In this document: one piece after another, positions 46,544-61,820 of the stretch
Layout of the letters: each line of letters begins with the position of its first letter
Position numbering within the stretch: the stretch's first letter is position 1
Notes under the pieces: model-generated
What the model saw: the letters and a program-made list of their open reading frames with translations, nothing else
What the model was told of the DNA's origin: nothing
Databases searched by the model: none
Source of the DNA: an uncultured Prevotellaceae bacterium
Lineage (GTDB): Bacteria; Bacteroidota; Bacteroidia; Bacteroidales; Muribaculaceae
Direction of reading: 5' to 3'
Assembly: GCA_900318335.1 (NCBI GenBank)
Contig: ONKF01000006.1
Location: 1-64,000, forward strand
DNA: 64,000 bases
Translations under genes and position numbers: made by a program

Positions 46544-46566
46544 TATGTTTGAACCAAAACCTAAAA

Positions 46567-47406
46567 ATGAAAATGAGCGGCCAACCGATAAAAATAGATG
46601 TCGACAAAGTGCTCCGTGATAGGCTTCCGAAGCACTACAAGTACATCCCGCGCTTTGTCGTGCGGTGGTTGGAGCGCACAATATGCCAGGATAAGCTCAA
46701 TGCAATCCTCACCAAGATGGCGGGAAAGAACAGTGTCGACGCAGCCACAGCCGCGCTCGACGAGATGGACATCACTGTCAAAGCCACAGGTCTGGAGCAC
46801 CTGCCCGAGGGGCGCTTCATGTTTGTGTCCAACCATCCCCTGGGCGGACTTGACGGTCTGGCGCTCATCTCGTTGTTGGGTAACCGCTACGATAAGAAAA
46901 TCAAGTTCTTGGTCAACGACCTGCTCATGGCAGTCGAACCCCTGCGCGGTGTGTTCCTGCCCGTGAACAAGTACGGCAACCAGGCACGCGCTGCCGCCGT
47001 GCAGATCGAGGAGGCTCTCCAGAGCGACAACCAGTTCATCACCTTCCCCGCAGGCCTGTGCTCACGCATGCAGCCCGATGGCTCCATTGCCGACCTGCCG
47101 TGGCAGAAGGCCGCTGTGGCTCATGCCATTAACCACCAGCGCGACATCGTGCCCATCTTTTTTGACGCCCACAATTCACGGTTTTTCTACCGCTTTGCCA
47201 AGTGGCGCAAAAAACTGGGCATCAAGTTCAATATCGAACTCATCTTCTTGCCCAAGGAGATGATCAAGAAGAGCGGCAGCACGCTGCGGGTGATGATCGG
47301 CGAGCCCATCCCCTGGAACACCCTAGATGCTACTCACCCCAAGCAGGAGGCAGCGCGCCTGCGCGAAATAGTAATCAATATGGCCCCAACGCCAGCAAAC
47401 CGATAA
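46567..47406 (+). CDS. Acyltransferase, GlsA-like (glycine lipid O-acyltransferase)
   Basis: This 279-residue PlsC/LPLAT-fold acyltransferase has the catalytic motif in SNHPLGGLDGLAL (HPLGGLD, the variant seen in the ornithine/glycine-lipid group), then FLPVNKYGN and FPAGLCSRMQPDG as acyl-acceptor motifs. It is followed 8 bp later by a GNAT-type N-acyltransferase. That pair is the arrangement known in Bacteroides for glycine lipids (GlsB makes N-acyl glycine, GlsA adds the second acyl chain). The start is set at MKMSGQ rather than the upstream TTG. The pathway is inferred from family and neighbour; the acceptor amino acid cannot be read from the sequence. Confidence 0.8.
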   Translation: MKMSGQPIKIDVDKVLRDRLPKHYKYIPRFVVRWLERTICQDKLNAILTKMAGKNSVDAATAALDEMDITVKATGLEHLPEGRFMFVSNHPLGGLDGLALISLLGNRYDKKIKFLVNDLLMAVEPLRGVFLPVNKYGNQARAAAVQIEEALQSDNQFITFPAGLCSRMQPDGSIADLPWQKAAVAHAINHQRDIVPIFFDAHNSRFFYRFAKWRKKLGIKFNIELIFLPKEMIKKSGSTLRVMIGEPIPWNTLDATHPKQEAARLREIVINMAPTPANR

Positions 47407-47414
47407 ATTGCCCT

Positions 47415-48353
47415 ATGGAACCCATTATTGAACCTATCCCCGTCCAACTCATCGAGCAGGAACTCACGCCCGAGCGCCTGCTGCGCCACACCAACAAGGC
47501 CGACAACGACATCTACGTCGTCACGGCCCACAACGCCCCCAACACGATGCGCGAGATCGGTCGCCTGCGTGAGATCACTTTCCGTGCTGCGGGAGGCGGT
47601 ACTGGCAAGGCGTGTGACATCGACGAGTTTGATACTATGGAGACGCCATGCCAACAACTGCTGGTGTGGAACCCCGACAAAAAGGAAATCATCGGAGCCT
47701 ACCGTTTCATCGGTGGCTGGGATGTGAAGGTGGAAAACGGCGTGCCACACATTGCCACGGGACACCTGTTCCGCTTCAGCGACAGGTTCCTGAACGAGAT
47801 TCTGCCTGTTACCATCGAACTGGGCCGCTCGTTTGTCCGCCCCGAATATCAGTCCACCCGCGAGGGCGTGCGGGCGCTGTTTGCACTCGACAACCTGTGG
47901 GACGGTTTGGGCGCACTGACCATCATCTACCCGAAGGTCAAATACATGTTCGGCAAGATGACGATGTACCCGAGCTACGTGCGCGACTGCCGCGACATGC
48001 TGCTGTGCTTCCTCAACCTCTACTTTGAGGACAAGGAGGGGCTAGTGGTGCCCATCGACCCGCTTCCCGACACCCGCAACGACGATCCCGCTCTGAGGTC
48101 TCAATTTGTGGGCAACGACTTCCGTGAGGACTACAAGCGGCTGAACGCCTTCATCCGCCAGCACGGTATCAACATCCCACCGCTGGTCAACGCCTATATG
48201 GGTCTATCGCCCAAGATGCTGCTGCTGGGCACCGCCATCAACCGTGAGTTCGGCAATGTGGAGGAAACGGGCATTCTTATCAACCTCGACGAGATAGCCG
48301 ACGAGAAGAAGCGCCGCCACATCGACACCTATCTGGCAAACATTGAACGATAA
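47415..48353 (+). CDS. GNAT-fold N-acyltransferase, GlsB-like
   Basis: This 312-residue protein is of the hemolysin/OlsB-like acetyltransferase type (Acetyltransf_5). Recognisable stretches are EIGRLREITFRAAGGGTG, LLVWNPDKKEIIGAYRFI, ELGRSFVRPEYQ and ALDNLWDGLGALTIIYP. In Bacteroides the homologue GlsB transfers a 3-hydroxy fatty acid to glycine, giving commendamide, the precursor of glycine lipids. The frame is open upstream into the previous gene, but the ATG at 47415 fits the family and the 8-bp spacing. Likely a peripheral inner-membrane enzyme. Confidence 0.82.
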   Translation: MEPIIEPIPVQLIEQELTPERLLRHTNKADNDIYVVTAHNAPNTMREIGRLREITFRAAGGGTGKACDIDEFDTMETPCQQLLVWNPDKKEIIGAYRFIGGWDVKVENGVPHIATGHLFRFSDRFLNEILPVTIELGRSFVRPEYQSTREGVRALFALDNLWDGLGALTIIYPKVKYMFGKMTMYPSYVRDCRDMLLCFLNLYFEDKEGLVVPIDPLPDTRNDDPALRSQFVGNDFREDYKRLNAFIRQHGINIPPLVNAYMGLSPKMLLLGTAINREFGNVEETGILINLDEIADEKKRRHIDTYLANIER

Positions 48354-48371
48354 CCGGAACATAATCATAAT

Positions 48372-50000
48372 ATGATAAAAAACACCATAGCATCACTCCT
48401 ACTCGCATTATGCTGCGCCACGACCGCGATGGCACAGGCACCGACAGACACCAAACTGGCCAACCTTGACCTCTCGACCGACACGTTGGAAATGCGCGAG
48501 CGCTTCAGCCCTGTTCTCTATGAGAATGAATACAGCTTTGGCTTCATGGCCAATGCGGGCAACAGCGAGTTGGCACCCTACTACATCAGTTCCAATTGCG
48601 GAGGTGTCATTACCCAGCAGTACTCTGCCCTGGTCAACGCATCGCTGTACCACAACATGAATATGGATCAGCGCTTCTCATGGGGCGCCGGACTTGAAGT
48701 CTGGGGCGGTTATGCGTCGAGTGCGGGCTACGAGCGCTACAAGGGCAACGATGAGTTTGAGATACTGAAGCAACACCCCGCACGGGTATGGATACAACAG
48801 GCTTATGTCGAGGCCAAGTACCGCAGCATCTTTGCCGAGGCAGGTCAAGCCTACAAGACCTCACCCATCGTCGATGCCTCGCTGAGCAGCGGTGACCTGG
48901 TGTGGAGCAACAATTCACGGCCTCCCGTGGGTCTGCGTGCCGGTTTCATCGACTTCCAGAATATCCCGTTCACTAAGGGCTGGGTACAGATCAAGGGCGA
49001 ATTCGGCTACTTCCGCGAGTTGGATGACAAGTGGCTCGAGAATCATTACAACTACTATAACCACTTCATTACTACGGGCTCGTGGCTGCACTACAAGAGC
49101 CTGCACTTCCGCACCAACCCTGAAAAACCCGTGGTGTTCACCATCGGTGCCCAGTCGGCATGTCAGTTCGGCGGCACGGCCAAGTACTACGAGGACGGCC
49201 AGGTGACGCGGACGGTGAAGATGGATGCCAACGCAAAGGCCTGGTGGCGCACATTTATTGCGGGCAGTGGCGGCAACAGCGCGGGCGACTCGTTTGTCGA
49301 GGGCAACCACCTGGGCACGTGGGACATCGCACTAGAGTATAACTCCAAGAATCTCTATCACTTGCGCGCCTACACCCAGTGGCTGTGGGAAGACGGCTCA
49401 GGCATCGGCAAGATGAACGGCTTTGACGGCCTGTGGGGACTGGAATACCATCGCAATGGATTTTTCCTCGTCTCGGGCGCTGTCATCGAGTATATCGACT
49501 TCACCAACCAGAGCGGCCCCATCCACTGGACGCCCAACGACCACGAGGGTACGGCAATCACCAGCCACTCGTCGGGAGCCGACGATTACTACAACAACTA
49601 CATCTACAATGGTTACCAGAGCCGCGGCATGTCCATCGGCTCGCCCTTCGTCAAGTCGCCGCTCTATAACCAGGACGGTTACATGCGCTACCGCGACAAC
49701 GTGCTGCGCGGTTTCCACGCCGCTGTCGAGGGTTGGCTCAGCAGCGACTGCCACTACACTCTGCAGGGCTCTTACCGCAAGGTGTGGGGCACGCCCATCA
49801 TCCCCCGCGCGGGCAGCATCGATGACTTCTCGATGGCATTATCGGTCTATTATTACCCCTATTGGCTCAAGGGCGTGAAGGTTGAAGGCCTATCTCTTGG
49901 CGCCACCGTGGCCATGGACCGCGGTAAGCTCTACGGCAACAACTGGGGCGCCCAATTGGGTATATCCTATAGCGGAAACTTTAATTTCAAGAAACGATGA
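48372..50000 (+). CDS. Outer-membrane protein, capsule assembly Wzi-like
   Basis: This 542-residue protein has a signal peptide ending TTAMAQA. The mature protein is a long array of amphipathic strands with aromatic girdles (EYSFGFMANAGNSELAPYYI, WIQQAYVEAKYRSIFAEAGQ, LSLGATVAMDRGKLYGNNWG) and ends with strand NFNFKKR. Size and pattern match the Wzi-type barrels of Bacteroidetes that attach capsule or other surface polysaccharide, but the assignment is by overall look. It begins 18 bp after the GlsB-like gene and overlaps the next gene by 4 nt, so the four genes form one envelope operon. Confidence 0.65.
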   Translation: MIKNTIASLLLALCCATTAMAQAPTDTKLANLDLSTDTLEMRERFSPVLYENEYSFGFMANAGNSELAPYYISSNCGGVITQQYSALVNASLYHNMNMDQRFSWGAGLEVWGGYASSAGYERYKGNDEFEILKQHPARVWIQQAYVEAKYRSIFAEAGQAYKTSPIVDASLSSGDLVWSNNSRPPVGLRAGFIDFQNIPFTKGWVQIKGEFGYFRELDDKWLENHYNYYNHFITTGSWLHYKSLHFRTNPEKPVVFTIGAQSACQFGGTAKYYEDGQVTRTVKMDANAKAWWRTFIAGSGGNSAGDSFVEGNHLGTWDIALEYNSKNLYHLRAYTQWLWEDGSGIGKMNGFDGLWGLEYHRNGFFLVSGAVIEYIDFTNQSGPIHWTPNDHEGTAITSHSSGADDYYNNYIYNGYQSRGMSIGSPFVKSPLYNQDGYMRYRDNVLRGFHAAVEGWLSSDCHYTLQGSYRKVWGTPIIPRAGSIDDFSMALSVYYYPYWLKGVKVEGLSLGATVAMDRGKLYGNNWGAQLGISYSGNFNFKKR

Positions 50001-50434
50001 AAAAGACAACATCATATTACCTGCTTATCGCATCATTTGTCATGGCGATGCTCGTCTTTGCCTCCTGCAACCGCAACCATGGCGACATCGGCATCTGGTT
50101 CGGCACCTGGCACGTCGATCAGATCACTGCCGGCGGCACGCCCGTCAACGTCGATGGCGACTACTTCTTCCAGTTCCAGAACAAGGTCTTCAGGGTATCT
50201 AATGTCGGTGCCCACGAGCAAGTGGAGGAGAGTTACGGCACGTGGGATGAGAGCGAGGACGGCCTCAAGATGACCGTTTCATTCCCCGACCCCACCGTAT
50301 ATTATATATATATGCCCGGGCTGGAAACCGAGAATCACTTCACCATCACACGGACTTCGTCACGCGACCTCACCTTCACCAAAACCGACACCACCGGCGC
50401 CACCTACTCCTACCACCTCAAAAAACAACCCTAA
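49997..50434 (+). CDS. Small lipocalin-like lipoprotein
   Basis: This 145-residue protein has a lipoprotein signal with lipobox VFASC (Cys about residue 24). The mature part resembles the lipocalin-like fold common in Bacteroidetes: GTWHVDQITAGGTPV, YFFQFQNKVFRVS, YGTWDESEDGLKMTVSF, LTFTKTD. It overlaps the Wzi-like gene by 4 nt (ATGA), implying translational coupling and perhaps a role as its periplasmic or outer-leaflet partner. The end of the gene marks a sharp drop in GC content. Confidence 0.78.
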   Translation: MKKTTSYYLLIASFVMAMLVFASCNRNHGDIGIWFGTWHVDQITAGGTPVNVDGDYFFQFQNKVFRVSNVGAHEQVEESYGTWDESEDGLKMTVSFPDPTVYYIYMPGLETENHFTITRTSSRDLTFTKTDTTGATYSYHLKKQP

Positions 50435-50446
50435 CCCCCCACGTTA

Positions 50447-50513
50447 TTCAAGTGTTTAAAGTTGACATGCCACTTTAAACACTTGCGGATATTGGATAAA
50501 GTCGAATCATTAA
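50447..50513. repeat. Left copy of the repeat bordering the AT-rich island
   Basis: It is a hairpin (AAGTGTTTAAAGT inverted as ACTTTAAACACTT) followed by GGATATTGGATAAAG. A similar unit lies at 57706-57787. The hairpin may also end the envelope operon. Confidence 0.6.
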
Positions 50514-50781
50514 CTCCGCCAATCAAGTTAACACCATCATTATTTCCGTTGACAACTGAGGAATCTTGCTACATCGTAGAAAAACCATGCTCATACACGA
50601 GAATTTTTGAAAAACTCTTGCATATTCCAAGAATTCTTACAAAAGTATGAATACAAGTTGTGCATACGGTGATTCGAATTAAATTTTTTCGTCACCACTA
50701 AATTGCTAAGAATCAACGATATATGCATTCTTCGATCATCTTTTTATTAACTTTTTAATCCCGACAACGGGTACTAATTAT

Positions 50782-50835
50782 ATAGAATTGCATCATGACA
50801 GAAAAATAATCTTCCATGATGCCGTGAAATTCTAT
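50782..50835. promoter_or_regulatory. Palindrome upstream of the island promoter
   Basis: GCATCATG (50790) pairs with CATGATGC (50815), and the outer ATAGAATT (50782) pairs with AATTCTAT (50828), leaving a 5-nt bulge. It ends 10 bp before a -7 element and covers the -33 position. This and the promoter are the only signals I see in the gap 50514-50979. Confidence 0.5.
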
Positions 50836-50845
50836 GATTTAATAG

Positions 50846-50853
50846 TATCTTTG
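50846..50853 (+). promoter_or_regulatory. -7 element, probable promoter of the peptide cluster
   Basis: TATCTTTG matches TAnnTTTG. There is no good -33 element; the adjacent palindrome occupies that position, so an activator or repressor may act here. Confidence 0.5.
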
Positions 50854-50979
50854 CCATGTCGTGACTGATTATTACTTATTTAATAAATAATAAGATATGA
50901 TGTTTTTTGCCACATGTTTTTGCCCAGGGAGTTAGTGGTAATTTAGAATTATGTGCTCTGAACTTTGGGTTAATAGCAC

Positions 50980-52167
50980 ATGAGTCAATCAATCTTCTAC
51001 TTAAAGAATTGTATGGACAAATATATTGTTTTAAATAATGGAATAAAAGTCGCAATTAATAATCATTATGACATTGTGTCTAGGATTATTATTGCCATTA
51101 TGGCTGGAAGCCGTGATTGTGGTAATGAATTGTGTGGTTTGGCGCATTTTTCTGAGCATATCCTATTGACTGATATGCATGATAAAAAAGATGCTATTAT
51201 AAACTGCGATGGTAAAACAACTAATGAAGAGACAGTAATATCATTAACATGTTTGAATGATGATTTTAATAGAGCTCTATTATTGATAAGAAACTGTCTT
51301 TCACTTGAGGAGATACCATATTCGTCTTATGAGAAAGAAAAAGAAATCATTAAGTCTGAGATTAAACGAAGAAGTGTGTTCTCCAATGATTTTTCAAACT
51401 CCATTAATTTGCAACTTTTTGAAGGTGGCTTAGAATATGATACTTTGGGCAGCGATGTATTATTAGATAATATTACATTAGAAGAAATATTGAACTTTAG
51501 AAATAAATACTATATCTCAAATAATATATCTATATCAATATCTACAAGTTTAAATGTTGAATACGTAACCGATATGGTTTCTACTTCTTTGGGTCGAATA
51601 AAATCAGGTCAAGAAATCAACAGAAAACCATGTCAACAAAAATCCCAATATTATATAACTCAACGTCATAAACAGGATTACGTTTGCAATTTGTATTGTT
51701 ATCCTATAAAAATACCATTTTCGCTTTATTCGCCATTGGATTTATTGTTGTTTTTTATCGGTGGAAAGACGTCTAATAATAGATTAATGGAAGGTCTTCT
51801 TATGAAAGGATTAAAAGTATATAATGCAGCAATGAGAATTGTGAAATACTCTGACTTTAGTGTAGTATTTCTAGAATATGATTGTCCAGCAGGAAGTGTT
51901 AGGGCTTATGAAAAGGCCATCAAAAGCATAATAGAAAGTACTATATTGCCTTATAATGAAGATCAAATGGATAAACTAGTCAAAAATTATATAATTAGTT
52001 ATATATCCTACATGAATTTAGACGAAAGATTATATATGGTATGTAGAGATATGCTTTATAATAATAGTTTCTTTTGTCAGGAACGAGACACTTTGAACTA
52101 TGCGAAGATAGTAACAGCTGATTGTTTAAAAAAAGCTTTTATCAAATATATTAAAACATTTTCTTAA
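50980..52167 (+). CDS. M16-family metallopeptidase (PqqF/insulinase-like, single half)
   Basis: This 395-residue protein (a second ATG at 51013 gives 384) contains the inverted zinc motif HFSEH (His56, Glu59, His60) in the context GLAHFSEHILL. The downstream glutamate of the M16 family is in KSEIKRR. One N-terminal active domain (about 10-205) and one inactive partner domain (210-395) are present, as in the short bacterial form. There is no signal peptide, so it is cytosolic. It is AT-rich, unlike the genes to its left. M16 enzymes cut leader peptides in several peptide-derived pathways; that role here is inferred from the neighbours. Confidence 0.83.
   Translation: MSQSIFYLKNCMDKYIVLNNGIKVAINNHYDIVSRIIIAIMAGSRDCGNELCGLAHFSEHILLTDMHDKKDAIINCDGKTTNEETVISLTCLNDDFNRALLLIRNCLSLEEIPYSSYEKEKEIIKSEIKRRSVFSNDFSNSINLQLFEGGLEYDTLGSDVLLDNITLEEILNFRNKYYISNNISISISTSLNVEYVTDMVSTSLGRIKSGQEINRKPCQQKSQYYITQRHKQDYVCNLYCYPIKIPFSLYSPLDLLLFFIGGKTSNNRLMEGLLMKGLKVYNAAMRIVKYSDFSVVFLEYDCPAGSVRAYEKAIKSIIESTILPYNEDQMDKLVKNYIISYISYMNLDERLYMVCRDMLYNNSFFCQERDTLNYAKIVTADCLKKAFIKYIKTFS
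52157..52167. repeat. Left 11-bp target duplication of the IS4-family element
   Basis: CATTTTCTTAA here is repeated at 53357-53367. It includes the stop codon of the M16 gene. Confidence 0.65.
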
Positions 52168-53185
52168 GTTCATGACAACAAAATAAAGATTTCAGATTAA
52201 TTCTTGTATCGGGGCTTTTGGTGCAAACTCTCAATCTCGATGAGGCCATACATGACCACCACATGGCCCTACGGACGTTGTTTAGAATGCGTATTGGGAC
52301 GCATTGATTCCAGTGGTCGCACACAAAGTCGGCCCAGACGCCAATGATGCACATCACTGCCAGCCGCCGCTCGAACCATTCCATGTGAGTGAGATGCGTG
52401 TCCTCGAGATGGAACCCTGCCGCCTTCAGACAACGGTTCAGCGTTTCAATCTGCTAGCGCAACTTGTAGATGTCCACGGCTTCCTAGGTGGCTGTTGTAG
52501 CTGGTCAGTATCTGCAGAACTGGGACACCGTCCGAGTTCAAGAGCCTGGCCCCCCGCCAAATAGACATATTCGCCTTTTAGCAGATAGAGTTGGTGCCGA
52601 GCTTCGGTTCACCCAACTTCAAGTCGTTGAAGAGCCAGAAAGCCTTGATAAACTTGCCGCTGCCAGACTTCTGTATCCAGCAGTTCTGTCGGATGTGTAG
52701 GTAGTAGCGGATGCCCCTGCTGTTGAGGATGCCCATCCAATTCTCGCCGACGAACTCACGATCAGCCACCAGACAATTGATCCAGTCCTTGCCAAAGAGC
52801 CTGATGAACCGCTCGATAATCTCAATGCATTCTGCTGTTCACGCGTATGAGTTGGAGTTTGAACAGGAGAGGGACGGCTACGTTCTCATAGGTCACGTCA
52901 AGCAGCAGAACGTTGATGTCATTCTGACCGTACTTCCAATTGGTGCGTTTCATTGTCAATACCAGCACGCTATTGACAGGACGCAGCGAGAAAACCAAGA
53001 GCGCTATCAGGTCCATCATGTAACCCACAAAAATCCTTTGCAACCGACGTATGTTGGACTCCTTCTCGGCAGCGTTGGCCAGCCTGACCAGTTTCACGAT
53101 CTGAGCCTTGGCCAGTGCCTCCAACAGCAGGGCCATCAATTTGATGCGCCAAGTTTATCGATTTTCCCAAATTTTCTTGCATGAT
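52168..53185 (-). pseudogene. IS4-family transposase, frameshifted remnant
   Basis: Fragments of one transposase are spread over several frames. An N-terminal piece (QENLGKSINLAHQI, about 53182-53141) continues after a frameshift as LLLEALAKAQIVKLVRLANA ... MKRTNWKYGQNDINVLLLDV (53139-52822). Then comes the catalytic-core signature ADREFVGENWMGIL with HIRQN (about 52769-52690), then a C-terminal piece RRLAVMCIIGVWADFV (about 52370). The DREFxGxxW and RTNWKFG-like motifs identify the IS4 type common in Bacteroidetes. At least three frameshifts make it inactive. Confidence 0.8.
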
Positions 53186-53207
53186 CGAAAAAAATTAACT
53201 AATTTTG
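53177..53207 (+). promoter_or_regulatory. Outward-facing promoter in the IS end
   Basis: TTG at 53177-53179, a 20-bp spacer and TAATTTTG at 53200-53207 read out of the IS towards the M42 gene, about 160 bp away. The spacing equals that of the other strong promoters in the window. Confidence 0.55.
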
Positions 53208-53356
53208 TCTTTATTCTTGGAATTAGTAGCTCTCTTCATCTGAATAATCGGAAGTTTTTAAAAAAGTTACTAAATTCCAAGGACTCATGTAATGCTCAAC
53301 CACCTGATGGCTAGTTAATAAGAGTTAAGTTTTTAACTTTTTGTCATGTACTAAAT

Positions 53357-53367
53357 CATTTTCTTAA
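53357..53367. repeat. Right 11-bp target duplication of the IS4-family element
   Basis: CATTTTCTTAA ends one base before the ATG of the M42 gene and matches 52157-52167 exactly. Confidence 0.65.
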
Positions 53368-53368
53368 A

Positions 53369-54442
53369 ATGAATAATTCAAGTCTAATTTCTGAACTTAA
53401 GCTTCTTGCATCACATTTATCACCATCATCTTTTGAGGATGATGTACAAGAATATTTCTTGTCAACATGCAACAAACATTGCGATGCAAAATGGAAAGAT
53501 GTGCTTGGAAATGCGTATATAAGATTAAAAGGAAAATCAAATTTTAAAATTATGATAGCTGCCCACGCAGATGAAATAGGTTTTATCATTACAAATGTAT
53601 TGGAGCAGGGCTACTTATCATTTGCTCGTATCGGCGGTGTGAATGCAAGTTTTCTGCAAGGACGAGAAGTCGTTATTCATCACGAAAACAGTTTCGTTTC
53701 AGGAGTCATTGGAAAACGTAGAGATATTAACAATGAAGACAGTAATGTATCATTTGAAAATTTGTGGATTGACATCGGTTGTTTTTCCAAAAGAGAAGCA
53801 CTTAAAAAAGTATCAATAGGCGATGTTGTGACTTTCAAACCAAATTTTACAAAAATATCTAATGGTATTATATGTAGTAAATCAATGGACAACAGATCCG
53901 GCTTGCTGATAATGGAGGATTTGGGTAATTTTTTTTATAATAAAGATATTATTCCAGAGATCTATCTAGTGGCAACTGTACAAGAAGAAATCGGTTGTCG
54001 AGGTATCATGACTGCAGTCTATAATGTTAATCCTGATGTTTGTATCATTTTGGATGTTACTCATGCAACGGACTACCCTGGAAATAATAGTAATATTTCA
54101 GGTGATATACATCTTTCTCAGGGGGCAGTGATTTCTTTTGGTGCTGATGTAAATATGCAACTTCAAAATGTTTTCAAAAAAATCTGCATTGAAAGAAAAA
54201 TAAAGTTTCAAATTGAGGTGAATGGCAAATCAAGTTATACTGATGCTGGTAATGCTCAACTGTCTAGACAAGGCATTGTCTGTGGATTGTTAAGCATACC
54301 ATGCAGGTATATGCACACTCCTGTAGAAATGATTTCACTTTCTGACATTAATTCTTGTAGCAATATTCTTAAAGAGTTTATAACAAACTTCCAAAAGTGG
54401 GAAAATGCTCTTCCACTTAAAAAAGGTGAGCAAATTTGTTAA
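53369..54442 (+). CDS. M42-family metallo-aminopeptidase
   Basis: This 357-residue protein has the five metal ligands of the M42 (glutamyl/deblocking aminopeptidase, TET) family in order: His in MIAAHADEIGF, Asp in KSMDNRSG, catalytic Glu pair in TVQEEIGCRG, Asp in ILDVTHATD, and His in RYMHTPVEM. There is no signal peptide. Such enzymes trim residues from the N-termini of short peptides in the cytosol, often as large tetrahedral assemblies. The gene is AT-rich, like its M16 and radical SAM neighbours. Before the IS insertion its ATG stood one nucleotide after the M16 stop codon, so the two peptidases were co-transcribed. Trimming of a modified peptide is inferred from context. Confidence 0.88.
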   Translation: MNNSSLISELKLLASHLSPSSFEDDVQEYFLSTCNKHCDAKWKDVLGNAYIRLKGKSNFKIMIAAHADEIGFIITNVLEQGYLSFARIGGVNASFLQGREVVIHHENSFVSGVIGKRRDINNEDSNVSFENLWIDIGCFSKREALKKVSIGDVVTFKPNFTKISNGIICSKSMDNRSGLLIMEDLGNFFYNKDIIPEIYLVATVQEEIGCRGIMTAVYNVNPDVCIILDVTHATDYPGNNSNISGDIHLSQGAVISFGADVNMQLQNVFKKICIERKIKFQIEVNGKSSYTDAGNAQLSRQGIVCGLLSIPCRYMHTPVEMISLSDINSCSNILKEFITNFQKWENALPLKKGEQIC

Positions 54443-54458
54443 ACTTAATTGTTTTATT

Positions 54459-54593
54459 ATGAACAGTAATATTCAAGTTTTTGATGTCGGTTTTGCTTCC
54501 AAGGAACAAATCTTGAGTTATTATTTCTTTGAAAGCAAATCTATGTTACAGCGCTCCTGCTGTGGTGACGGGTGTCACAGATGGATGGATTAA
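54459..54593 (+). CDS. Candidate RiPP precursor peptide (44 residues)
   Basis: This small frame begins at an ATG 17 nt after the M42 stop codon. The N-terminal ~28 residues are leader-like (hydrophobic and acidic, with VFDVGFASKEQILSYYF). The C-terminal part is short and rich in unusual residues: SCCGDGCHRWMD, with three Cys, one His and one Trp. There is no GG cleavage motif. It lies between peptidase genes and a radical SAM/SPASM maturase, the usual place for a precursor. I do not recognise the peptide from any described family. A perfect 12-bp hairpin follows it. The coding status is inferred from position and composition. Confidence 0.72.
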   Translation: MNSNIQVFDVGFASKEQILSYYFFESKSMLQRSCCGDGCHRWMD

Positions 54594-54613
54594 TTCGTTT
54601 GTGTTTTTTCACT

Positions 54614-54647
54614 TTGGCTGCATGCCTGATATCTAGCATGCAGCCAA
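54614..54647 (+). promoter_or_regulatory. Stem-loop between precursor and maturase genes
   Basis: TTGGCTGCATGC pairs perfectly with GCATGCAGCCAA (12 bp) around a 10-nt loop. There is no T run, so it may be an attenuator or an mRNA-stabilising element that raises the precursor:enzyme ratio, as in many peptide operons. Confidence 0.6.
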
Positions 54648-54665
54648 TTGTTAAAAAGAAAGATT

Positions 54666-55976
54666 ATGGAAATTTCTAAATATATTATATCCACAGAAGT
54701 TGATGAGAGTATTATTCTATATAGTACATTAACAACAGCATTGATTTCAATCGACAAGAACTCATATAACTCAATTTTTATTAAGAAAGATTTCTCTAAT
54801 GAAGGATTATGTTCTTCATTATTAAAAATGGGATTTATCGAAAATTCTGAAGGAGAACAGCTTAAATTAATTGAAGAACTACGTGAAAAAGATATATTAA
54901 GCCCTGTTCAGACTATTGTAGTGTATACGACAAATAGGTGCAACGCTCGTTGTTATTATTGTTTTGAAAGAGGAATTAAGCAGGTGGATATGACTAGGGC
55001 AACAGCGGACAAACTCTTGGATTTTATATCGTTGAGATTTCCTCAAAAGGACCTATCAATTTCATGGTTTGGAGGTGAGCCACTCTACAATTTTGATATA
55101 ATAGTATATATAACTCAGAAATTAATAGAACTGGGCTACAATCTTTATGCACACATAACTACTAACGGTTCGCTGATAGATGAAGACAAAATATCTTTTT
55201 TTAAAAAATATTATAGAGAGTTGTCTATACAAGTGACAATTGATGATGTTGGCGAGAAATATAATAAAATAAAAAGCTACATTGACATTAAAGATAGAAG
55301 CCCTTTTGATATGGTTATATCTAATTGTAAATTAATTTTGCAGAATGATATTAAATTATCAATTCGTATAAACTACAATACTTATGAGATTGATAGAACT
55401 ATTAACATTTACAAACAATTAAAGAGCTATTTTGAGAATGATAATAAAAATAATCTTCGTCTTTATTTGGCTGCTATAACCATGACTGAAGATTACATTA
55501 ATTTACATACGGAATCTAAGGAGGAACATGCTGATAATCTTTTTAAGGCTTTAGCTTTTGCAAGCGAACAGGGCTTATATAATCCTAGGGCAACAGATGA
55601 AAGACAAAGGCTTTTATCTGCATATTGTCTGCTTCCTAAGCCAAGCAGTTGTGCGGCTTGCAGAAAAAATTACCTAACGGTTGATGCTGAAGGATACATA
55701 TATAAATGTCATAGGCTACAGAAATATGAGAGATATAGGATTGGAAGTGTATATAATGGGCTTAAAAAAACAAATTATGTTGATAAATTTGAGGACTATC
55801 ATGTTTATCAAGAGAAATGCAAAGAATGTAACATATTACCAATTTGTCAGCAGGGTTGTTTCGCTGTAAAAGAATTGTATGATCAGGATTTAGATTGTGA
55901 GACAAAGGAAGTACAAGAAGAACTCCTATTGAAATATTTTAAAGATTTGAAAAGGTTGTCTAAATGTGACTTGTGA
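54666..55976 (+). CDS. Radical SAM/SPASM peptide maturase
   Basis: This 436-residue protein has three parts. The N-terminal domain (about 1-85) follows the pattern of precursor-recognition regions in peptide maturases (SKYIISTEVDESIILYSTLT ... SLLKMGFIE). The radical SAM core (about 85-300) has the [4Fe-4S] motif CNARCYYC (Cys92, Cys96, Cys99) and the SWFGGEPL motif. The C-terminal SPASM domain (about 325-420) has CAAC, YKCHRL, KCKECNILPICQQGC and a final Cys before KEVQEE, enough for auxiliary clusters. The ATG at 54666 is preferred over the TTG at 54648. It should install a C-C, C-S or related crosslink on the adjacent peptide; the exact reaction cannot be told. Confidence 0.9.
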   Translation: MEISKYIISTEVDESIILYSTLTTALISIDKNSYNSIFIKKDFSNEGLCSSLLKMGFIENSEGEQLKLIEELREKDILSPVQTIVVYTTNRCNARCYYCFERGIKQVDMTRATADKLLDFISLRFPQKDLSISWFGGEPLYNFDIIVYITQKLIELGYNLYAHITTNGSLIDEDKISFFKKYYRELSIQVTIDDVGEKYNKIKSYIDIKDRSPFDMVISNCKLILQNDIKLSIRINYNTYEIDRTINIYKQLKSYFENDNKNNLRLYLAAITMTEDYINLHTESKEEHADNLFKALAFASEQGLYNPRATDERQRLLSAYCLLPKPSSCAACRKNYLTVDAEGYIYKCHRLQKYERYRIGSVYNGLKKTNYVDKFEDYHVYQEKCKECNILPICQQGCFAVKELYDQDLDCETKEVQEELLLKYFKDLKRLSKCDL

Positions 55977-55994
55977 AATTCTAGTGTTTTTTAA

Positions 55995-57020
55995 ATGACT
56001 TTAATAGATATGGCGGATGAAACCGCTAAAATCCAAATTCTAGATATTCCCAATCTGGTTCAATCCTTTATTGAAAACCATTTTAGTAAAGTGAAAGATA
56101 TGGGTTATAATACATCAGATCCGTATTACCAGAATCTTCTTAAAGATCCAATAAGGAATTATTTTAAGATATCCAACAATACGTCTTTCTTTGTTGGAGC
56201 AGGAGTAACAGAATTGTTCAGAACATTATTATACATTTTCAACACAGGGAGAGTTATTGGTGTCGCTCATCAGTTTACCCCTTTTATCGATTATCTTAAA
56301 ATCGTAGGAAATGATTATACTGCTGTGCAGAATTCAGATTTTTCTTTTCCTTTAGAAGAACTCCTCAATAAAATAGATAATACTCCTAATTGTTCCTTTG
56401 TCATATTGGAACGTCCTATGAAATTTTCTGGTGATTGTTGCAGTTTATTAGATTTGAGTAGAATTCTATCTGGAGCGTTACATCATGGGTTGTATGTATT
56501 GGTTGATGAATCATATGCTAATTATATACCTTTAGAAGAATCTTCTATAAAGTTGCTAGATTTTTTCCATAATTTAATAGTATTAAGGTCGAATGCCAAG
56601 GCGTTTAATTTAGGTGGTATAAGGACAGGTATTCTATTTACTTCATCATTGGATATGACTCAGAAGTTGAGATACTATTGTCGCCCATACTCACCAGATA
56701 TATTTTCTGTAAATTTCTTTGCATATCATTTAAAAATGGGAAGAGATTTAATTAATAAGCTTATCATTTTCACGGATGAGCTGAAAAGAAAAGTAATGTT
56801 TGGATTGTCAAGTAGAGGCTATCAGTATTTACCAACACACAGAAGTGTTCCTATAATTTGTATATATAATAAAAGTTTTGATGTTAACCAGTATTTTGAA
56901 GATGCTTTTGTGAAGACATCAAATTATAATTATAATGTTAGTATTAATGGTCATTCTCTTTGTAGAATTCGTATACCCTATAATGTGGATGTATTGAATC
57001 AGTTTGTTCGTATTTTGTAA
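55995..57020 (+). CDS. HisC-like PLP-dependent aminotransferase (class I/II)
   Basis: This 341-residue fold-type I PLP enzyme is close in look to histidinol-phosphate aminotransferase and threonine-phosphate decarboxylase. It has FFVGAGVTELFRTLL (cofactor phosphate loop), VLVDESYANYI (the Asp and Tyr contacting the pyridine ring), SNAKAFNLGGIRTG with the Schiff-base Lys202, and a terminal CRIRIPYN with the substrate-carboxylate Arg. It lies 18 bp after the maturase gene. With no histidine-synthesis genes nearby and the same AT-rich composition, it probably acts on the peptide product or an amino acid released from it. This is an inference; methanobactin operons offer a precedent for an aminotransferase acting on a RiPP. 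Confidence 0.85.
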   Translation: MTLIDMADETAKIQILDIPNLVQSFIENHFSKVKDMGYNTSDPYYQNLLKDPIRNYFKISNNTSFFVGAGVTELFRTLLYIFNTGRVIGVAHQFTPFIDYLKIVGNDYTAVQNSDFSFPLEELLNKIDNTPNCSFVILERPMKFSGDCCSLLDLSRILSGALHHGLYVLVDESYANYIPLEESSIKLLDFFHNLIVLRSNAKAFNLGGIRTGILFTSSLDMTQKLRYYCRPYSPDIFSVNFFAYHLKMGRDLINKLIIFTDELKRKVMFGLSSRGYQYLPTHRSVPIICIYNKSFDVNQYFEDAFVKTSNYNYNVSINGHSLCRIRIPYNVDVLNQFVRIL

Positions 57021-57470
57021 GGTGTATTGGTATGATTTGTTGATGGTATTACTCTTGACTATCAAAATATATCATTGTTGTCAAGCGGATTACAAGAAAA
57101 AGTGACAGTTTTTTGATGTGATTTTTGATGTGAAAGGCGAGGTTGATGCATATTGACGGTTCTTGTTGATAGCATCGCAAGGCTTTGCATTAAAAGAACG
57201 CGTCCAACCTGATAGCCCGTAAGCCATCAGTGAACCCCGTATTGTGAGATTCTTTGAAAGTCTCCGAAAAAATTGGAGAGAGTCTCAAAGATGTTGGATG
57301 ATTCTCTGAGATTTTGAAAATAAGTCTGAGAGTGATGGAGGATTTTCAGAGTATGTCAGAGAACTGCGTATGCGTATTCCGGCGATATCCATTCACTCAG
57401 TTTAGGTGAAAAACGCCTCAAGTTTTTAAGAAGGCATCAACGACTGAAGCCCAAATGTTGTTCGTAAACA

Positions 57471-57504
57471 AGCCAAATGTTGTTTTTTTTAGATAGATTT
57501 GGCT
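57471..57504. other. Hairpin in the gap after the peptide cluster
   Basis: AGCCAAAT is inverted as ATTTGGCT, preceded by a direct repeat of CCAAATGTTGTT. The remaining sequence of the 57021-57705 gap contains short scattered repeats of TCTGAGA-like words and no coding frame that I can support. Confidence 0.4.
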
Positions 57505-57705
57505 GATTTACACATATTCTTGCCAATTTCAGTGGTGCCTGTTCATCTCTTGAAGATACATTCTCTCATCTTATTCTAAAAAAATCCTCCGCCTCAAATC
57601 CCCCAGCTGCCTTATAAATAACTAAAGAGAATTACGCTCCATTTTTGACAGCTGTCTATAATTGAAGAGACATGCCAACGGATATGTAAGGGACGACAAC
57701 AATTT

Positions 57706-57787
57706 TTCAAGTATCTAAAGCAGCATGTCCACTTTAAATACTTACTTTAAATACTTAAGGATAATGGATAAAGATGAATGGTTAAAG
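57706..57787. repeat. Right copy of the repeat bordering the AT-rich island
   Basis: AAGTATCTAAAG is inverted as CTTTAAATACTT, followed by an extra ACTTTAAATACTT unit and GGATAATGGATAAAG. It corresponds to 50447-50513 on the same strand. It ends next to the stop codon of the GH89 gene. Confidence 0.6.
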
Positions 57788-57788
57788 T

Positions 57789-59972
57789 TTATTGTTCTAG
57801 GAGGTCGTTGTATTTCTGGCGGAGGTTGCGGCAATGGGTCAGCAGGTCCTCGTCAGCAGAACCCTGAACGACTTCCTCGGTCGAAGTGACCCATTTTTCC
57901 TGAAACTTGTCGGTGGCCGTGCGATAAGCGTCCTCAAGAAATTCGTTGCCTGACAGCATCGCCACAGTCATTTCTCGGAAGTAGATTTCCCACCGTTTGG
58001 CATAGTAATCCCACATAAGCCCGTTCCAGTTGCGGCAGGCGTAATCGTTCAAACTGCCGCCCCAAGTCGTGATCAGGCGACGGGCATTCATCTCGTAATA
58101 GTCCTTGACCTTTGGGGTGGAGCCCAAGTCGCGTGCCTGTTGCAGCCATTGGGCCAGGGTCGCATGGGGATGATGGCTGTTGAGGTTATCCAAGTCGGAC
58201 AAGATTTCATAAAGCAGATCGCTGTGAGCGAAAAAGGCCGTGCGGTCGCCCTGCTGGTAGGCCTGGTCCAACGCCTGCTTCTCGGTCAGGAACAGGTCGC
58301 CCAGCAGCTGCCGCCCCACCCAGATGAGGTCGATGGTCATGGCATCGGTCTTCACCTCGTCCTGCATGAGCAGGTAGTCCCACACGGCAAGCAACTGGCG
58401 CTTGTCGTACTTCACAGTGCGGCTTTCCTTATTCATCTGGGGATAGGAGCACGGCAGCGGGGCCGCAAAGTTGCCGGGCGTGATGTCGAGCACGCTGTCA
58501 TAGAGCAACTTCCATGCCTGGCGGACAGGCTCGCTCTCGCGGCCAGCATGGCGGTCGGCCAGTTCGTTGATGACCTGCTCGTCGGTCTTGCCGAAGTTCC
58601 ACGCCTTCTCAAGAATGTATTCATAGGGGAACTGCTGCACGTCCAGGCCCTCGAGCGTGGAGCCGATGCCCACGAGATTATCGCCACACTCGGCCAGCGC
58701 CCGCTCGATGCGCTTGCCCGCCTCGCGGACACGTCCCTGCACATTGGTATTGCCACCGAAGTTGCCCAGGTAGCACCAGATGAACGGCTGTCCGTAGAAA
58801 CCCTCGTGCTCACGCCACATCTCCTTGTACTCGCAGTAGTAGTCGAGCATGGTCATCTTGCCCTGGGGGACACCCGTGAGCATGGCACGGGTGCGCTCGG
58901 CCGTGTAATCCTCGCGCTGGTAATACAGAAACCACGCCATCTGCAGCCACTCGGCATCGGGGTCTACGGCGGTGAGGCTCTCATAGATGTGGCGCGACAC
59001 CTTGTTGAGGTAATCGGGTGAGAAACTGGGCGGATCCACCTCGTTGAACGGGTCGATGCCGTAGATATGGTCGGTGCCGAACAGGCGCGTCTGCTCCTCG
59101 AGGAACAGGCGCTGGATGCGGGCATACAGCGGATCCTCGCTGTTGAGGAAATAGGTACGGTAGGCCTTGTCAAACCCAGCCCAGCCACCCAAGGCCTGGA
59201 TATCGGCATCGGGGAAAAGGTCACGCAGCGCCCCAGGCACATGGCCCGCGAAGGCGGGCAGCACGGGACGCATGTTGAGCGCCCGCTCGCGCTCCACAAT
59301 GCGCTGCTGCAGGGCGGTCTGCTGGGTGAGCCATTCCTTGGGCAAGGGTCCGCACCAGCCGTCGATGTTGGCCATGCGGTGCCAGGGCAGATAGGCTGGC
59401 CCAGTGAAGTAAGACCTCACCTGCTGGTCGCTCATGCCCAATCGGGTCCACACATTATACCACACCGCCTCCTGGCCAGTGATGGCGAGCGGCAGATTCA
59501 CTCCGTTGAGCGCCATCCAGTCGATGAGACGCTCCCAGTCCCGCCATTGCCAGAAAGGCATCGTGTAACCCCAAGTGCAGTAATTGAGGAAGAAACGCTG
59601 CGGCACACGGGCGGTCACCCGCTCGCGGTCGGGTACATCGGGCAAGACTGCAGGCAACTTGACTGGCACCGTGGCATACCACGACACCGTCACGCGGCAA
59701 TAGCGGTTCAGGTAACGGTTCAGCCCCACGGCCATCGACCCGGCATTATTGCCACCGATGACAATCTTGCCGCCACGGCTCTCGAGCGTGAACACATCCC
59801 TGCCCTGGTCGGCATCAATCGGCAGGAACTCGACCTTGCTGGCCAATCGGGACGACAACCGCCCCGCCAGAGCCATCGCCTGCTCCACGTCACCATTTAC
59901 CGCACCGCTGGCAGCCACCGCCACCAGCATCACCATGATACAAATCACAAATCGCCTGGCCATATCCTTCAA
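57789..59972 (-). CDS. Alpha-N-acetylglucosaminidase (GH89, NAGLU-like)
   Basis: This 727-residue enzyme has a signal peptide (MVAVAASGAV region). The N-terminal alpha/beta domain (about 25-115, with VIGGNNAGSMAVGLNRYL) is followed by the catalytic barrel (115-500) with NYCTWGYTMPFWQWRDWERL, LPAFAGHVP, YGIDPFNEVDPP and GSTLEGLDVQ. The two predicted catalytic glutamates, Glu311 and Glu441, are 130 residues apart, as in human NAGLU. A helical C-terminal domain ends the protein. It releases terminal alpha-linked GlcNAc, for example from gastric-type mucin glycans or heparan-type chains. It is probably periplasmic. A second ATG at 59963 is possible. Confidence 0.93.
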   Translation of the reverse strand: MKDMARRFVICIMVMLVAVAASGAVNGDVEQAMALAGRLSSRLASKVEFLPIDADQGRDVFTLESRGGKIVIGGNNAGSMAVGLNRYLNRYCRVTVSWYATVPVKLPAVLPDVPDRERVTARVPQRFFLNYCTWGYTMPFWQWRDWERLIDWMALNGVNLPLAITGQEAVWYNVWTRLGMSDQQVRSYFTGPAYLPWHRMANIDGWCGPLPKEWLTQQTALQQRIVERERALNMRPVLPAFAGHVPGALRDLFPDADIQALGGWAGFDKAYRTYFLNSEDPLYARIQRLFLEEQTRLFGTDHIYGIDPFNEVDPPSFSPDYLNKVSRHIYESLTAVDPDAEWLQMAWFLYYQREDYTAERTRAMLTGVPQGKMTMLDYYCEYKEMWREHEGFYGQPFIWCYLGNFGGNTNVQGRVREAGKRIERALAECGDNLVGIGSTLEGLDVQQFPYEYILEKAWNFGKTDEQVINELADRHAGRESEPVRQAWKLLYDSVLDITPGNFAAPLPCSYPQMNKESRTVKYDKRQLLAVWDYLLMQDEVKTDAMTIDLIWVGRQLLGDLFLTEKQALDQAYQQGDRTAFFAHSDLLYEILSDLDNLNSHHPHATLAQWLQQARDLGSTPKVKDYYEMNARRLITTWGGSLNDYACRNWNGLMWDYYAKRWEIYFREMTVAMLSGNEFLEDAYRTATDKFQEKWVTSTEEVVQGSADEDLLTHCRNLRQKYNDLLEQ

Positions 59973-60094
59973 TTGTTTAACTGTGGTTGAAAACGCAAAT
60001 GTAGCGATAATTCTCTATAAAACATGTGGCTAAAACGCTTTTTTAACCCTATCCGCATCGCCCCAAGAATCCCAAATCCACCCCAAAACGGCCA

Positions 60095-60151
60095 TTTTGC
60101 ACAAAAAATTGTGCAAAAATCCTCAAAAATTGCACGAAAATTTGTGCAATT
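60095..60151. promoter_or_regulatory. Two tandem operator-like palindromes
   Basis: TTTTGCAC-N8-GTGCAAAA at 60095-60118 and AATTGCAC-N8-GTGCAATT at 60128-60151 share the core TTGCAC-N8-GTGCAA with identical spacing. Their centres are 33 bp apart, about three helical turns. The second ends 6 bp before the -7 box of the DUF554 gene. Confidence 0.65.
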
Positions 60152-60157
60152 GTGCTG

Positions 60158-60165
60158 TAACTTTG
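60158..60165 (+). promoter_or_regulatory. -7 element of the DUF554 gene
   Basis: TAACTTTG lies 20 nt before the ATG at 60186, directly after the palindromes. Confidence 0.6.
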
Positions 60166-60185
60166 CGGACTCAAACTCAATTATT

Positions 60186-60890
60186 ATGATTGGAACGATA
60201 GTCAATACCTGCACGATAGTGGCGGGCACCCTCATTGGGGTGGCGCTGCACAAGGGCATCAAGGAGAAATACAAGAATGTGCTTTATGACGCGCTGGGAC
60301 TGGCGTGCTTTGCCATCGGCCTGAATGCCGTGGTGACCAACCTGCCCAAGAGCCAGTATCCCGTCCTGTTTATCGCCGCTATGGCCATCGGCAGCGTCGT
60401 TGGCGTCGCGCTGGACATCGACGGGCGCTTCCACCGCCTGGTGGACCGCAAGAGCAAGCATCCTGACGGGGACAAGTCATCCAACCGACTGGCAGACGGT
60501 CTGGCGACCGCCACGCTGGTCTATTGCATCGGCCCGCTGTCGATGCTGGGACCCGTCATCAGTGCCCTGGAGGGCGACAACACCTTCCTGTTCACCAATG
60601 CCACGCTCGACCTGGTCACAGCGACCATATTCGGCTCGACTTACGGTATCGGCATGCTGCTGGCGGCGCCCGCGCTGTTCCTGTGGCAGGGCATGTTCTA
60701 TTGCATCGCCATGATCTCGAGCACGGCGGTGAGCGAGGCACTGATGGCCGAGTTGCTCATCGTGGGCGGCCTGCTCATCACGGGTTCGGGGCTGTCGCTG
60801 CTGCGCATCAAGGACTGCCACGTGCTCAACATGCTTCCCGCGTTGCTCGTCCCGCCCCTGTGGTACCTGCTTATGGCAATAATCGGTTAA
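60186..60890 (+). CDS. DUF554 membrane protein
   Basis: This 234-residue protein has about seven membrane helices and the family start MIGTIVNTCTIVAGTLIGVA. Other family marks are GLNAVVTNLP, an acidic loop DIDGRFHRLVDRKSK, then YCIGPLSMLGPVISAL. The family (YdfK/YqgA type) is of unknown function. The ATG at 60186, after the promoter, is chosen over the longer frame from 60024, which would run through the palindromes and the -7 box. Confidence 0.88.
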   Translation: MIGTIVNTCTIVAGTLIGVALHKGIKEKYKNVLYDALGLACFAIGLNAVVTNLPKSQYPVLFIAAMAIGSVVGVALDIDGRFHRLVDRKSKHPDGDKSSNRLADGLATATLVYCIGPLSMLGPVISALEGDNTFLFTNATLDLVTATIFGSTYGIGMLLAAPALFLWQGMFYCIAMISSTAVSEALMAELLIVGGLLITGSGLSLLRIKDCHVLNMLPALLVPPLWYLLMAIIG

Positions 60891-60929
60891 TAATGGGAGA
60901 AACATTGTGAGCAATCATCTTTTTTTCAC

Positions 60930-60937
60930 TATCTTTG
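60930..60937 (+). promoter_or_regulatory. -7 element of the phospholipase gene
   Basis: TATCTTTG matches TAnnTTTG, 31 nt before the start codon. Confidence 0.55.
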
Positions 60938-60968
60938 TCGCTTAAATCATAAAGAAACTCATAAAGTA

Positions 60969-61820
60969 ATGAACGCCTTACGCTACTTATACATTATCGC
61001 CATTATCGTTGCTGCTGGAATGAGCATCCCCGCAACGGGACAGATTGTCACCAGAGACCGGTCCAGCAGCGAAATTGCCGACAGTATCCGCGCCGAGCTT
61101 GACAGCAGGCCCTACTTCGGCCTCTACAAGGACACTTACTTCGTGGGCGGCACCGTGCTGGGCAGCAAGCCGACCAGCCATAACAGCGATGTCAAGTTCC
61201 AGATCAGTTTCCAGCAGCGCCTGACCAAGAGTGTGCTCCCGTGGAACACTTATCTGTACCTTTTCTATTCCCAAAAGGCCTTGTGGAACGTCTTTGAGCG
61301 TTCCCTGCCCTTCCACGACCTGAACTTCAACCCCGGTCTCGGTATCTCGCGATACGTCATCTTGAAAAACCGCCTCGTGGGCAAGGTCACCTTGATGATA
61401 GAGCACGAGTCCAACGGACGCGACGGTACGGCATCACGCAGCTGGAACAAGATTTCATGGGCGGGCGAAGCCTATATCTCACCCAACCTGATGGCGCATG
61501 CCAAGTTCTGGATTCCCATCGTTGACGGCAAATACAACAAGGACATCCTCAAGTACAGCGGCATCTCCCAGGCCGGCTTCCAGGCCATCAGCAACGATGA
61601 CAAGTGGGTGCTGGACATGACACTGGTCAAGCGCAAGGGATGGAACTTCAACTTCAACACCATCGTGCAGCTGGGCTATCGACTCAACCACAATTCCAAC
61701 CAGTTCCTCATGCTGCAGTACTATAACGGCTACGGTGAGACCCTGCTCGACTACAACCAGTACCACTCCCGCATCCGCATCGGCCTGCTCATCAGACCCA
61801 AGTTCTTCAGCGACTTCTAA
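60969..61820 (+). CDS. pldA: Outer-membrane phospholipase A (PldA/OMPLA)
   Basis: This 283-residue protein has a signal peptide ending IPATGQ. The 12-stranded barrel has the OMPLA catalytic residues: IEHESNGRDG (His146, Ser148) and the Asn of YYNGYGETLLDYN. The calcium-binding neighbourhood SRSWNKI is also present. It cleaves acyl chains from phospholipids in the outer leaflet of the outer membrane, restoring lipid asymmetry. It is monocistronic, with its own -7 element. Confidence 0.92.
   Translation: MNALRYLYIIAIIVAAGMSIPATGQIVTRDRSSSEIADSIRAELDSRPYFGLYKDTYFVGGTVLGSKPTSHNSDVKFQISFQQRLTKSVLPWNTYLYLFYSQKALWNVFERSLPFHDLNFNPGLGISRYVILKNRLVGKVTLMIEHESNGRDGTASRSWNKISWAGEAYISPNLMAHAKFWIPIVDGKYNKDILKYSGISQAGFQAISNDDKWVLDMTLVKRKGWNFNFNTIVQLGYRLNHNSNQFLMLQYYNGYGETLLDYNQYHSRIRIGLLIRPKFFSDF

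Follow-up and report, generated by a model that had tools for sequence, protein, structure and literature searches.

The closest described counterparts of the locus analyzed here, a candidate pathway for a ribosomally synthesized and post-translationally modified peptide (RiPP), are those of the radical S-adenosylmethionine (SAM)/SPASM maturases CteB (SCIFF) and PapB (freyrasin). PapB accepts Cys-Xn-Asp motifs with n = 0–6 (PMC9413430; here and below, papers cited by PMC number are represented by the sections consulted). The other enzymes of the locus, an M16 peptidase, an M42 peptidase, and a pyridoxal phosphate (PLP) enzyme, are each known in RiPPs: the M42 peptidase ChrP sits in DUF692 Chr clusters (PMC10214503), the M16 pair PttP1/PttP2 cuts the leader and then acts as an aminopeptidase in paenithopeptin formation (PMC10885120), and PLP enzymes belong to methanobactin and daptide pathways (PMC10352776, PMC10036551). 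The Bacteroidales radical SAM clusters BGC7 and BGC8 carry a gene with an aminotransferase domain (PMC10352776). The locus lies in a 64,000-nt stretch of DNA from an uncultured Prevotellaceae bacterium (GenBank assembly GCA_900318335.1, contig ONKF01000006.1, positions 1–64,000; hereafter the window).

Positions 50.4–57.8 kb of the window form an AT-rich island of ~7 kb with five frames, all on the + strand, in the order M16, M42, a 44-codon Cys peptide, a radical SAM/SPASM enzyme, and a HisC/CobD-like PLP enzyme (Table 1). The original prediction, made from the DNA letters, had described five same-strand AT-rich genes with intact key motifs as a candidate new RiPP pathway. All frames and motifs were found as claimed, none of the five frames has an internal stop, and the RiPP character of the locus is highly probable, supported by a peptide-end motif, CGxxxHRW, shared with another locus and by the RiPP recognition element (RRE) fold of the N-terminal domain of the maturase. 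That account did not include an IS4-family remnant, a hairpin between peptide and maturase genes, direct repeats bounding the island, or the loss of the NPTG Asn in the PLP enzyme.

Table 1. Coordinates of the features of the island, in window positions.
Feature	Position	Strand	Basis or remark
Imperfect direct repeat, left copy	50444..50513	+	Island border; 57/69 aligned positions identical to 57703-57785
M16-family metallopeptidase half, 395 aa	50980..52167	+	PF00675, PF05193; alignment to MPP-beta chains
Repeat flanking insertion sequence, left copy (target duplication)	52146..52167	+	Ends with the M16 stop codon; 19/22 identical to 53346-53367
Decayed IS4-family insertion sequence, broken transposase	52168..53345 (about)	-	Outer ends inverted-repeat-like
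Repeat flanking insertion sequence, right copy	53346..53367	+	One base ahead of the M42 ATG
M42 aminopeptidase, 357 aa	53369..54442	+	PF05343, E 2.9e-75
Precursor peptide gene, 44 codons, C-terminal core ...RSCCGDGCHRWMD	54459..54593	+	CGxxxHRW common to two L006 frames; position
Hairpin, 12-bp stem, peptide-maturase gap	54614..54647	+	z -3.83 and -4.5; 0/200 shuffles fold as well
Radical SAM/SPASM peptide maturase with N-terminal RRE-like domain, 436 aa	54666..55976	+	
Fold-type I PLP enzyme, HisC/CobD-like, divergent, 341 aa	55995..57020	+	PF00155, E 2.5e-13; Schiff-base Lys codon 56598-56600
Imperfect direct repeat, right copy	57703..57785	+	Island border

The precursor peptide and its maturase

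The maturase matches PF04055 (53.3 bits, cut-off 29.5) and the SPASM model TIGR04085 (49.2, cut-off 27); with the Pfam SPASM model PF13186 it scores 14.3, under the cut-off of 21.5. Its CNARCYYC motif lies at 54939–54962. CNARCxYC, which contains the CxxxCxxC signature, and the SPASM cysteines C329, C348, C385, C388, C394, and C398 are invariant across 23 sequences. In predicted models the N-terminal domain has an RRE fold, and the whole chain matches CteB and TigE. ChlB and anSMEcpe tie with CteB in fold Z, yet leave the N-terminal domain uncovered, and the domain was therefore folded alone. The predicted architecture is RRE–SAM–SPASM. CteB is the best match among solved sequences and by whole-chain fold, and the best NCBIfam match is the PapB ranthipeptide maturase family (E 7.5e-39), at 133.9 bits well under the cut-off of 340 (NF047865). 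The SCIFF model TIGR03974 gives 90.9 bits against a cut-off of 425, and the peptide has three Cys rather than the six in forty-five residues of SCIFF.

The 44-residue frame begins at an internal ATG of an open reading frame listed from 54405 and ends in CGxxxHRWMD (core CCGDGCHRWMD). A frame of this length is not rare in itself: a 44-codon ATG frame arises in the 223-nt gap in 4.3% of 20,000 composition shuffles. We accept it because its C terminus is conserved, not because of its length. CGxxxHRW occurs twice in 2,918,070 six-frame residues of other loci, both times in a peptide array beside the closest relative of the maturase (locus L006); this count leaves out three copies of the window locus, one of locus L014, and two of L006, and keeps in two peptide-free stretches of the window. 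The motif arises in 5 of 500,000 shuffles of the window peptide. Over its full length, the score of the peptide against the L006 HRW frames is reached by 0/3000 shuffles for one and by 1.3% for the other, uncorrected for the seven pieces compared; the other L006 pieces give shuffle fractions of 5% to 96%. A conserved precursor end thus stands beside the maturase in both the window and L006, and the short Cys frame of the original prediction passed its conservation check. Judged by this conserved end, the 44-codon frame is a real precursor gene. Since the motif recurs beside the closest maturase relative, a small modified peptide is very probably made.

A strong hairpin separates peptide and maturase genes in the window and in three of four other loci folded (z -3.4 in L006, -3.6 in L015, and -5.0 in L025). 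In the window it is likely an attenuator or 3' stabilizer, and it would point to stronger transcription of the peptide gene than of the enzyme gene that follows.

Recurrence of the genes in other loci

A collection of species genomes was scanned with an alignment of three maturases, which gave 219 confirmed relatives; the best 80 were tabulated, and the locus counts below refer to these. The closest, L006, from an uncultured Bacteroidales bacterium (42% identity), has, in this order, an M42 gene, a second radical SAM gene, an array of short Cys peptides, and the maturase. The combination of M42, Cys peptide(s), and maturase is found in three other loci, all from Bacteroidales: L006, L012, and L014 (the same locus as L002). 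The window peptide sits between M42 and maturase, as a Cys peptide does in L014; the maturase directly follows M42 in L012, with the peptide behind it, and the second radical SAM gene and the array intervene in L006. The window M42 is 39–40% identical to the M42 proteins of these loci. L084 has two tandem M42 genes (29%) ~2.3 kb past the maturase match. The original prediction had looked to a tabulation of neighbors for support. M42, peptide, and maturase do come together in the three loci, M16 and the PLP enzyme do not, and the recurrence therefore supports a RiPP pathway and not a conserved system of five genes. Such a system was searched for and not found, and no second genome with all five genes was found.

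The maturase occurs in 3/297 genomes of the family (E 1e-30), the source genome included. The PLP enzyme is present in 2/393 genomes of the order (E 1e-15), the source genome and one with a partial 30% match of another kind, and the M16 protein in 2/395 genomes of the phylum (E 1e-15), the second time among unrelated genes. M42 was found in 14/344 genomes of the order (E 1e-60), including the source and L006 genomes. M42 as a search handle for the system was dropped: close M42 proteins also lie amid unrelated genes, and M42 alone is therefore no marker. Among 35 viral-contig loci of maturase relatives, none has an M16, M42, or PLP-enzyme match at E 1e-5; three relatives on plasmids are of the Clo7bot type or unnamed.

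Short Cys frames (at most 110 residues, at least 3 Cys, within 1.8 kb of the maturase) were sought in 40 of the 80 loci. Such a frame is present in 22 of these 40, including all 11 best (L006–L016), a count without a chance control. We judged nine of the 11 plausible for a peptide; L010 and L013 pass the filter and were not counted, and L015 and L016 are near copies. No M42 match is present in L007–L011 or L013, which come from Clostridia-type bacteria, the archaeon Candidatus Methanoplasma, and Enorma.

These loci hold further peptides. L008, L009, and L011 (Oscillospiraceae, Eubacterium, Enorma) have a family of their own beside the maturase relatives, 37–38 aa long and ending in C[DE]PHxMCPKCL plus four residues, just past the maturase match (at 3135, 11343, and 10947, respectively). 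At L013 7343–7477, a peptide with the end QCSASCCWGEGCWWA, whose core resembles the CCGDGC of the window, lies beside another radical SAM enzyme. In the L006 array (4326–4475 and 3992–4155), two frames end in CGxxxHRWG; an in-frame TAG precedes one Cys-rich HRW tail, and the other HRW tail is out of frame with its neighbor. The L006 M42 gene is frameshifted at a run of G. These three defects reflect either decay or assembly error.

L006 (1203–1508) and L014 (555–877) share a ~266-bp segment bounded by inverted repeats of at least 20 nt (TAGTTCCACAAAAGAACTAT), located between the M42/radical SAM operon and a gene that we take to encode a tyrosine recombinase (96% identity between L006 and L014 over 181 aa). 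The segment has opposite orientations in L006 and L014, which makes it probable that DNA inversion turns these operons on and off. Upstream of M16 the window has no such inverted repeat pair. The gene ahead of M42 in L014 (894–1475) is presumably a NusG/UpxY-like antiterminator gene, as in Bacteroides capsule loci. Downstream of M42 and maturase, L012 continues (11269–19691) with further genes including a second Cys peptide; we take the others to include radical SAM enzymes, GNAT acetyltransferases, and a glycosyltransferase-like gene.

The peptidases, the PLP enzyme, and the island

The M16 protein exceeds the Pfam cut-offs (PF00675, 31.9 bits against 22.3; PF05193, 45 against 23) and carries HFSEH, an HxxEH motif, at 51145–51159; a possible alternative start is an ATG at 51013. 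It scores 12.7 bits with the PqqF model TIGR02110, whose cut-off is 320. The island holds a single M16 half, and further M16 genes are found elsewhere in the source genome. The M42 protein scores 253.5 bits with PF05343 (cut-off 23.2), and the residues that we take to be its metal ligands align with those of the solved M42 structure 9qr6.

The two peptidase genes are separated by the remnant of an insertion sequence (IS). A transposase piece (52825–53139) gives 51% and 46% matches to annotated IS4-family transposases on two Bacteroides plasmids; this plasmid search supplied the IS4 name, as a Pfam search of three IS pieces, tried first, gave no family above cut-off. The terminal inverted repeat matches at 22/29 positions, a score reached by 2/485 controls, and the remnant is present in a single copy in the source genome. 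With the insertion removed, a single base separates the M16 stop from the M42 start. The 22-nt flanking repeats argue that M16 and M42 abutted before the IS arrived and therefore probably formed one transcription unit. A frame near the right end of the IS (53108–53314), ending ...NFVFILGISSSLHLNNRKFLKKLLNSKDSCNAQPPDG, may be a remnant of another peptide or a chance frame.

The PLP gene starts 18 nt past the maturase stop. Its product scores 50.4 bits with PF00155 (cut-off 19.7), Lys202 aligns with the HisC lysine, and the Asp and Tyr of the PLP site are also kept. The Asn of NPTG contacts a PLP oxygen. This Asn is gone: HisC PNNPTGD corresponds to PMKFSGD. Ordinary transamination is thus uncertain, and 'aminotransferase' is only a family name; of the predicted HisC-like aminotransferase, the fold family and the catalytic Lys stood up, and the activity is in doubt. 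In plasmids the enzyme has one relative, from Pantoea (28% identity over 94% of the length), which also lacks the NPTG Asn (PALLAG).

Compared with a congener, G1087, the island is inserted DNA: in that genome the two genes flanking the island are ~270 bp apart with nothing between them. Eight congener stretches were compared, and this one (locus L107) alone had both flanking genes; the remaining seven, among them two shorter than 2.3 kb, did not yield a second flank. We take the flanking genes to be a small lipoprotein-like gene and an alpha-N-acetylglucosaminidase-like gene. GC content per 500 bases is 28–42% over 50500–57499, except for 51% where the IS remnant is covered, and 50–63% in the flanks (46000–50499 and 58000–61999). 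GC at third codon positions (GC3) is 0.23–0.26 for the M16, M42, maturase, and PLP genes, 0.43 for the peptide, and 0.75 for one upstream neighbor. The score of the direct repeats that bound the island is reached by 0/1886 control pairs taken inside it. A search of the source genome with the left copy recovered that copy and its palindrome and nothing else; the right copy has therefore diverged too far to be detected in this way. The left copy holds a hairpin with a perfect 14-bp stem (50449–50485), which is perhaps also the terminator of the gene upstream.

Candidate pathway and comparison with known systems

In the pathway that we favor, the 44-residue peptide would be the precursor, and the RRE-like domain of the maturase would bind its N-terminal part. 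The maturase would modify the C-terminal segment RSCCGDGCHRWMD, most likely by CteB/PapB-type thioether(s) that link a Cys through its sulfur to a carbon in the side chain of a residue close by, for example Asp37 or Asp44, a chemistry that we rate as an even chance. M16 would cut within the leader, and M42 would trim the new N terminus until blocked by the modified or cyclized segment; this order of the peptidases could as readily prove wrong as right. Finally, the PLP enzyme would act on the exposed terminus by transamination or some similar PLP chemistry, a role proposed for the HisC-like enzyme of some methanobactins. Whether the PLP enzyme acts on the precursor peptide at all is evenly poised.

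Several observations weigh against a single pathway of five proteins. M16 is found in none of the 80 loci, the PLP enzyme has three weak matches (L055, L066, and L077; E 5e-5 to 5e-3), and L006, L012, and L014 match neither, so the repeated co-occurrence of all five genes that the original prediction had named as support was not found. The absences are partly a matter of contig ends because many of the contigs are short (in L006, the contig stops 0.7 kb past the last listed frame). No radical SAM gene is present among the 19 annotated features of the Pantoea plasmid cluster that houses the nearest full-length PLP relative found, a table that may be incomplete. In the two best new M42 genomes, M42 lies among unrelated genes, with no radical SAM gene seen in the frame list. 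The loss of the NPTG Asn counts here as well. As for the peptide, it has only three Cys, no likeness between its leader and those of L006 could be detected, no Cys-bearing short frame passed the filter in 18 of the 40 relatives, and L014, among the four other loci folded, lacks the hairpin. The RiPP product is a prediction from the genes.

The pathway could consist of M42, peptide, and maturase only, with M16 and the PLP enzyme as passengers or with another function in the same island. The recurrence of just these three genes and the different kind of cluster around the Pantoea relative would then be expected; the short distance from maturase to PLP gene, the former abutment of M16 and M42, and the shared low GC3 of the four enzyme genes argue otherwise, and we consider this arrangement plausible but unlikely. 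The original prediction had suggested a scaffold logic, as for pyrroloquinoline quinone (PQQ) or mycofactocin. On this reading the peptidases would free a small molecule of one or two linked core residues (for example, Cys- or His-Arg-Trp-derived) that the PLP enzyme would convert and that would stay in the cell. The presence of two peptidases and a PLP enzyme fits this idea, as does the very short conserved block, CGxxxHRW. Its premise of no exporter also held: none is found in the island, nor is a C39-peptidase exporter domain in the source genome (0/1; 92.9% complete assembly). No positive evidence for the scaffold emerged; the PqqF score is far under its cut-off, conservation with the maturase does not extend to M16 or the PLP enzyme, and the several different Cys-rich peptides of the L006 array are more in keeping with a varied set of peptide products than with a single fixed small molecule. 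We regard it as unlikely.

The IS between M16 and M42, itself already broken, could mean that the insertion split M16 from the rest and that the cluster is being lost. The IS is intergenic, however, and the five genes are intact though it had time to decay, which makes such a loss very unlikely. Least probable by far is that the 44-codon frame arose by chance and the true precursor lies elsewhere. The gap shuffles and the GC3 of the frame, higher than in its neighbors, are compatible with this; the CGxxxHRW common with L006 largely refutes it, and position and hairpin also speak against it. Our tentative preference, short of even as a whole, is for a horizontally acquired RiPP biosynthetic operon that follows the pathway set out above. 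A joint role of all five genes in one pathway is itself fairly probable, an estimate that rests on one genome. A more specific and rather doubtful proposal is a new RiPP class of thioether Cys-Gly...His-Arg-Trp peptides, matured by an intracellular M16/M42 relay with a finish by an NPTG-less PLP enzyme; its product would be a metal-binding peptide with an altered N terminus, or else a cofactor derived from the peptide, and not a secreted bacteriocin.

The locus offers a testable precursor–maturase pair from a Bacteroidales branch of radical SAM peptide chemistry that has received little study, with CGxxxHRW as a conserved core to seek in mass spectra, and it connects M42 aminopeptidases with radical SAM peptides. 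Should the PLP enzyme act on the peptide, this would be a new kind of RiPP tailoring.

As the original prediction had supposed, no described system with this gene set was found in the open-access literature, nor was a publication on L006, L012, or L014. These loci resemble the window in that M42 shares an operon with Cys peptides and with a maturase 29–42% identical to that of the window; they differ in their extra radical SAM enzymes, in having no M16 or PLP-enzyme match, and, for L006 and L014, in the invertible segment. CteB and PapB share with the window maturase the RRE-like N terminus, the radical SAM core, the SPASM Cys, and a short Cys precursor nearby, and the spacing accepted by PapB covers C34/C35..D37 and C39..D44 of the window peptide. 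The window differs in a maturase under the curated cut-offs, in a precursor with three Cys instead of six (PMC9413430, sections consulted), and in the companion M16, M42, and PLP enzymes.

In the Chr clusters, M42 ChrP likewise stands beside a precursor with a C-terminal Cys motif, CPACGMG, and the modifying enzyme is a DUF692 protein, not a radical SAM enzyme (PMC10214503, sections consulted). None of the five island proteins matches DUF692 in Pfam, which sets the locus apart from both the Chr clusters and methanobactin; the core CCGDGCHRWMD also lacks CPACGMG, and the PLP enzyme lacks the NPTG Asn. We take the Chr product to be chryseobasin and the HisC-like enzyme of methanobactin to be MbnN. 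Methanobactin is alike in using a HisC-like PLP enzyme in a Cys-peptide pathway (PMC10352776). Paenithopeptin formation also employs M16 in leader removal, there as a heteromeric pair for class III lanthipeptides and here as a single half (PMC10885120). Daptides are RiPPs with PLP enzymes too, of PF00202 (PMC10036551), whereas the window enzyme matches PF00155 only. BGC7 and BGC8 pair a Bacteroidales radical SAM enzyme, placed near ranthipeptide maturases, with an aminotransferase domain, which there is joined to a DNA-binding homeodomain in a fusion interpreted as a regulator; the consulted sections of that paper mention no M16 or M42 (PMC10352776). Because a tested defining feature of each is missing, we file the locus outside the PapB, SCIFF, PQQ, methanobactin, Chr, and daptide families, as a variant of radical SAM/SPASM RiPP loci.

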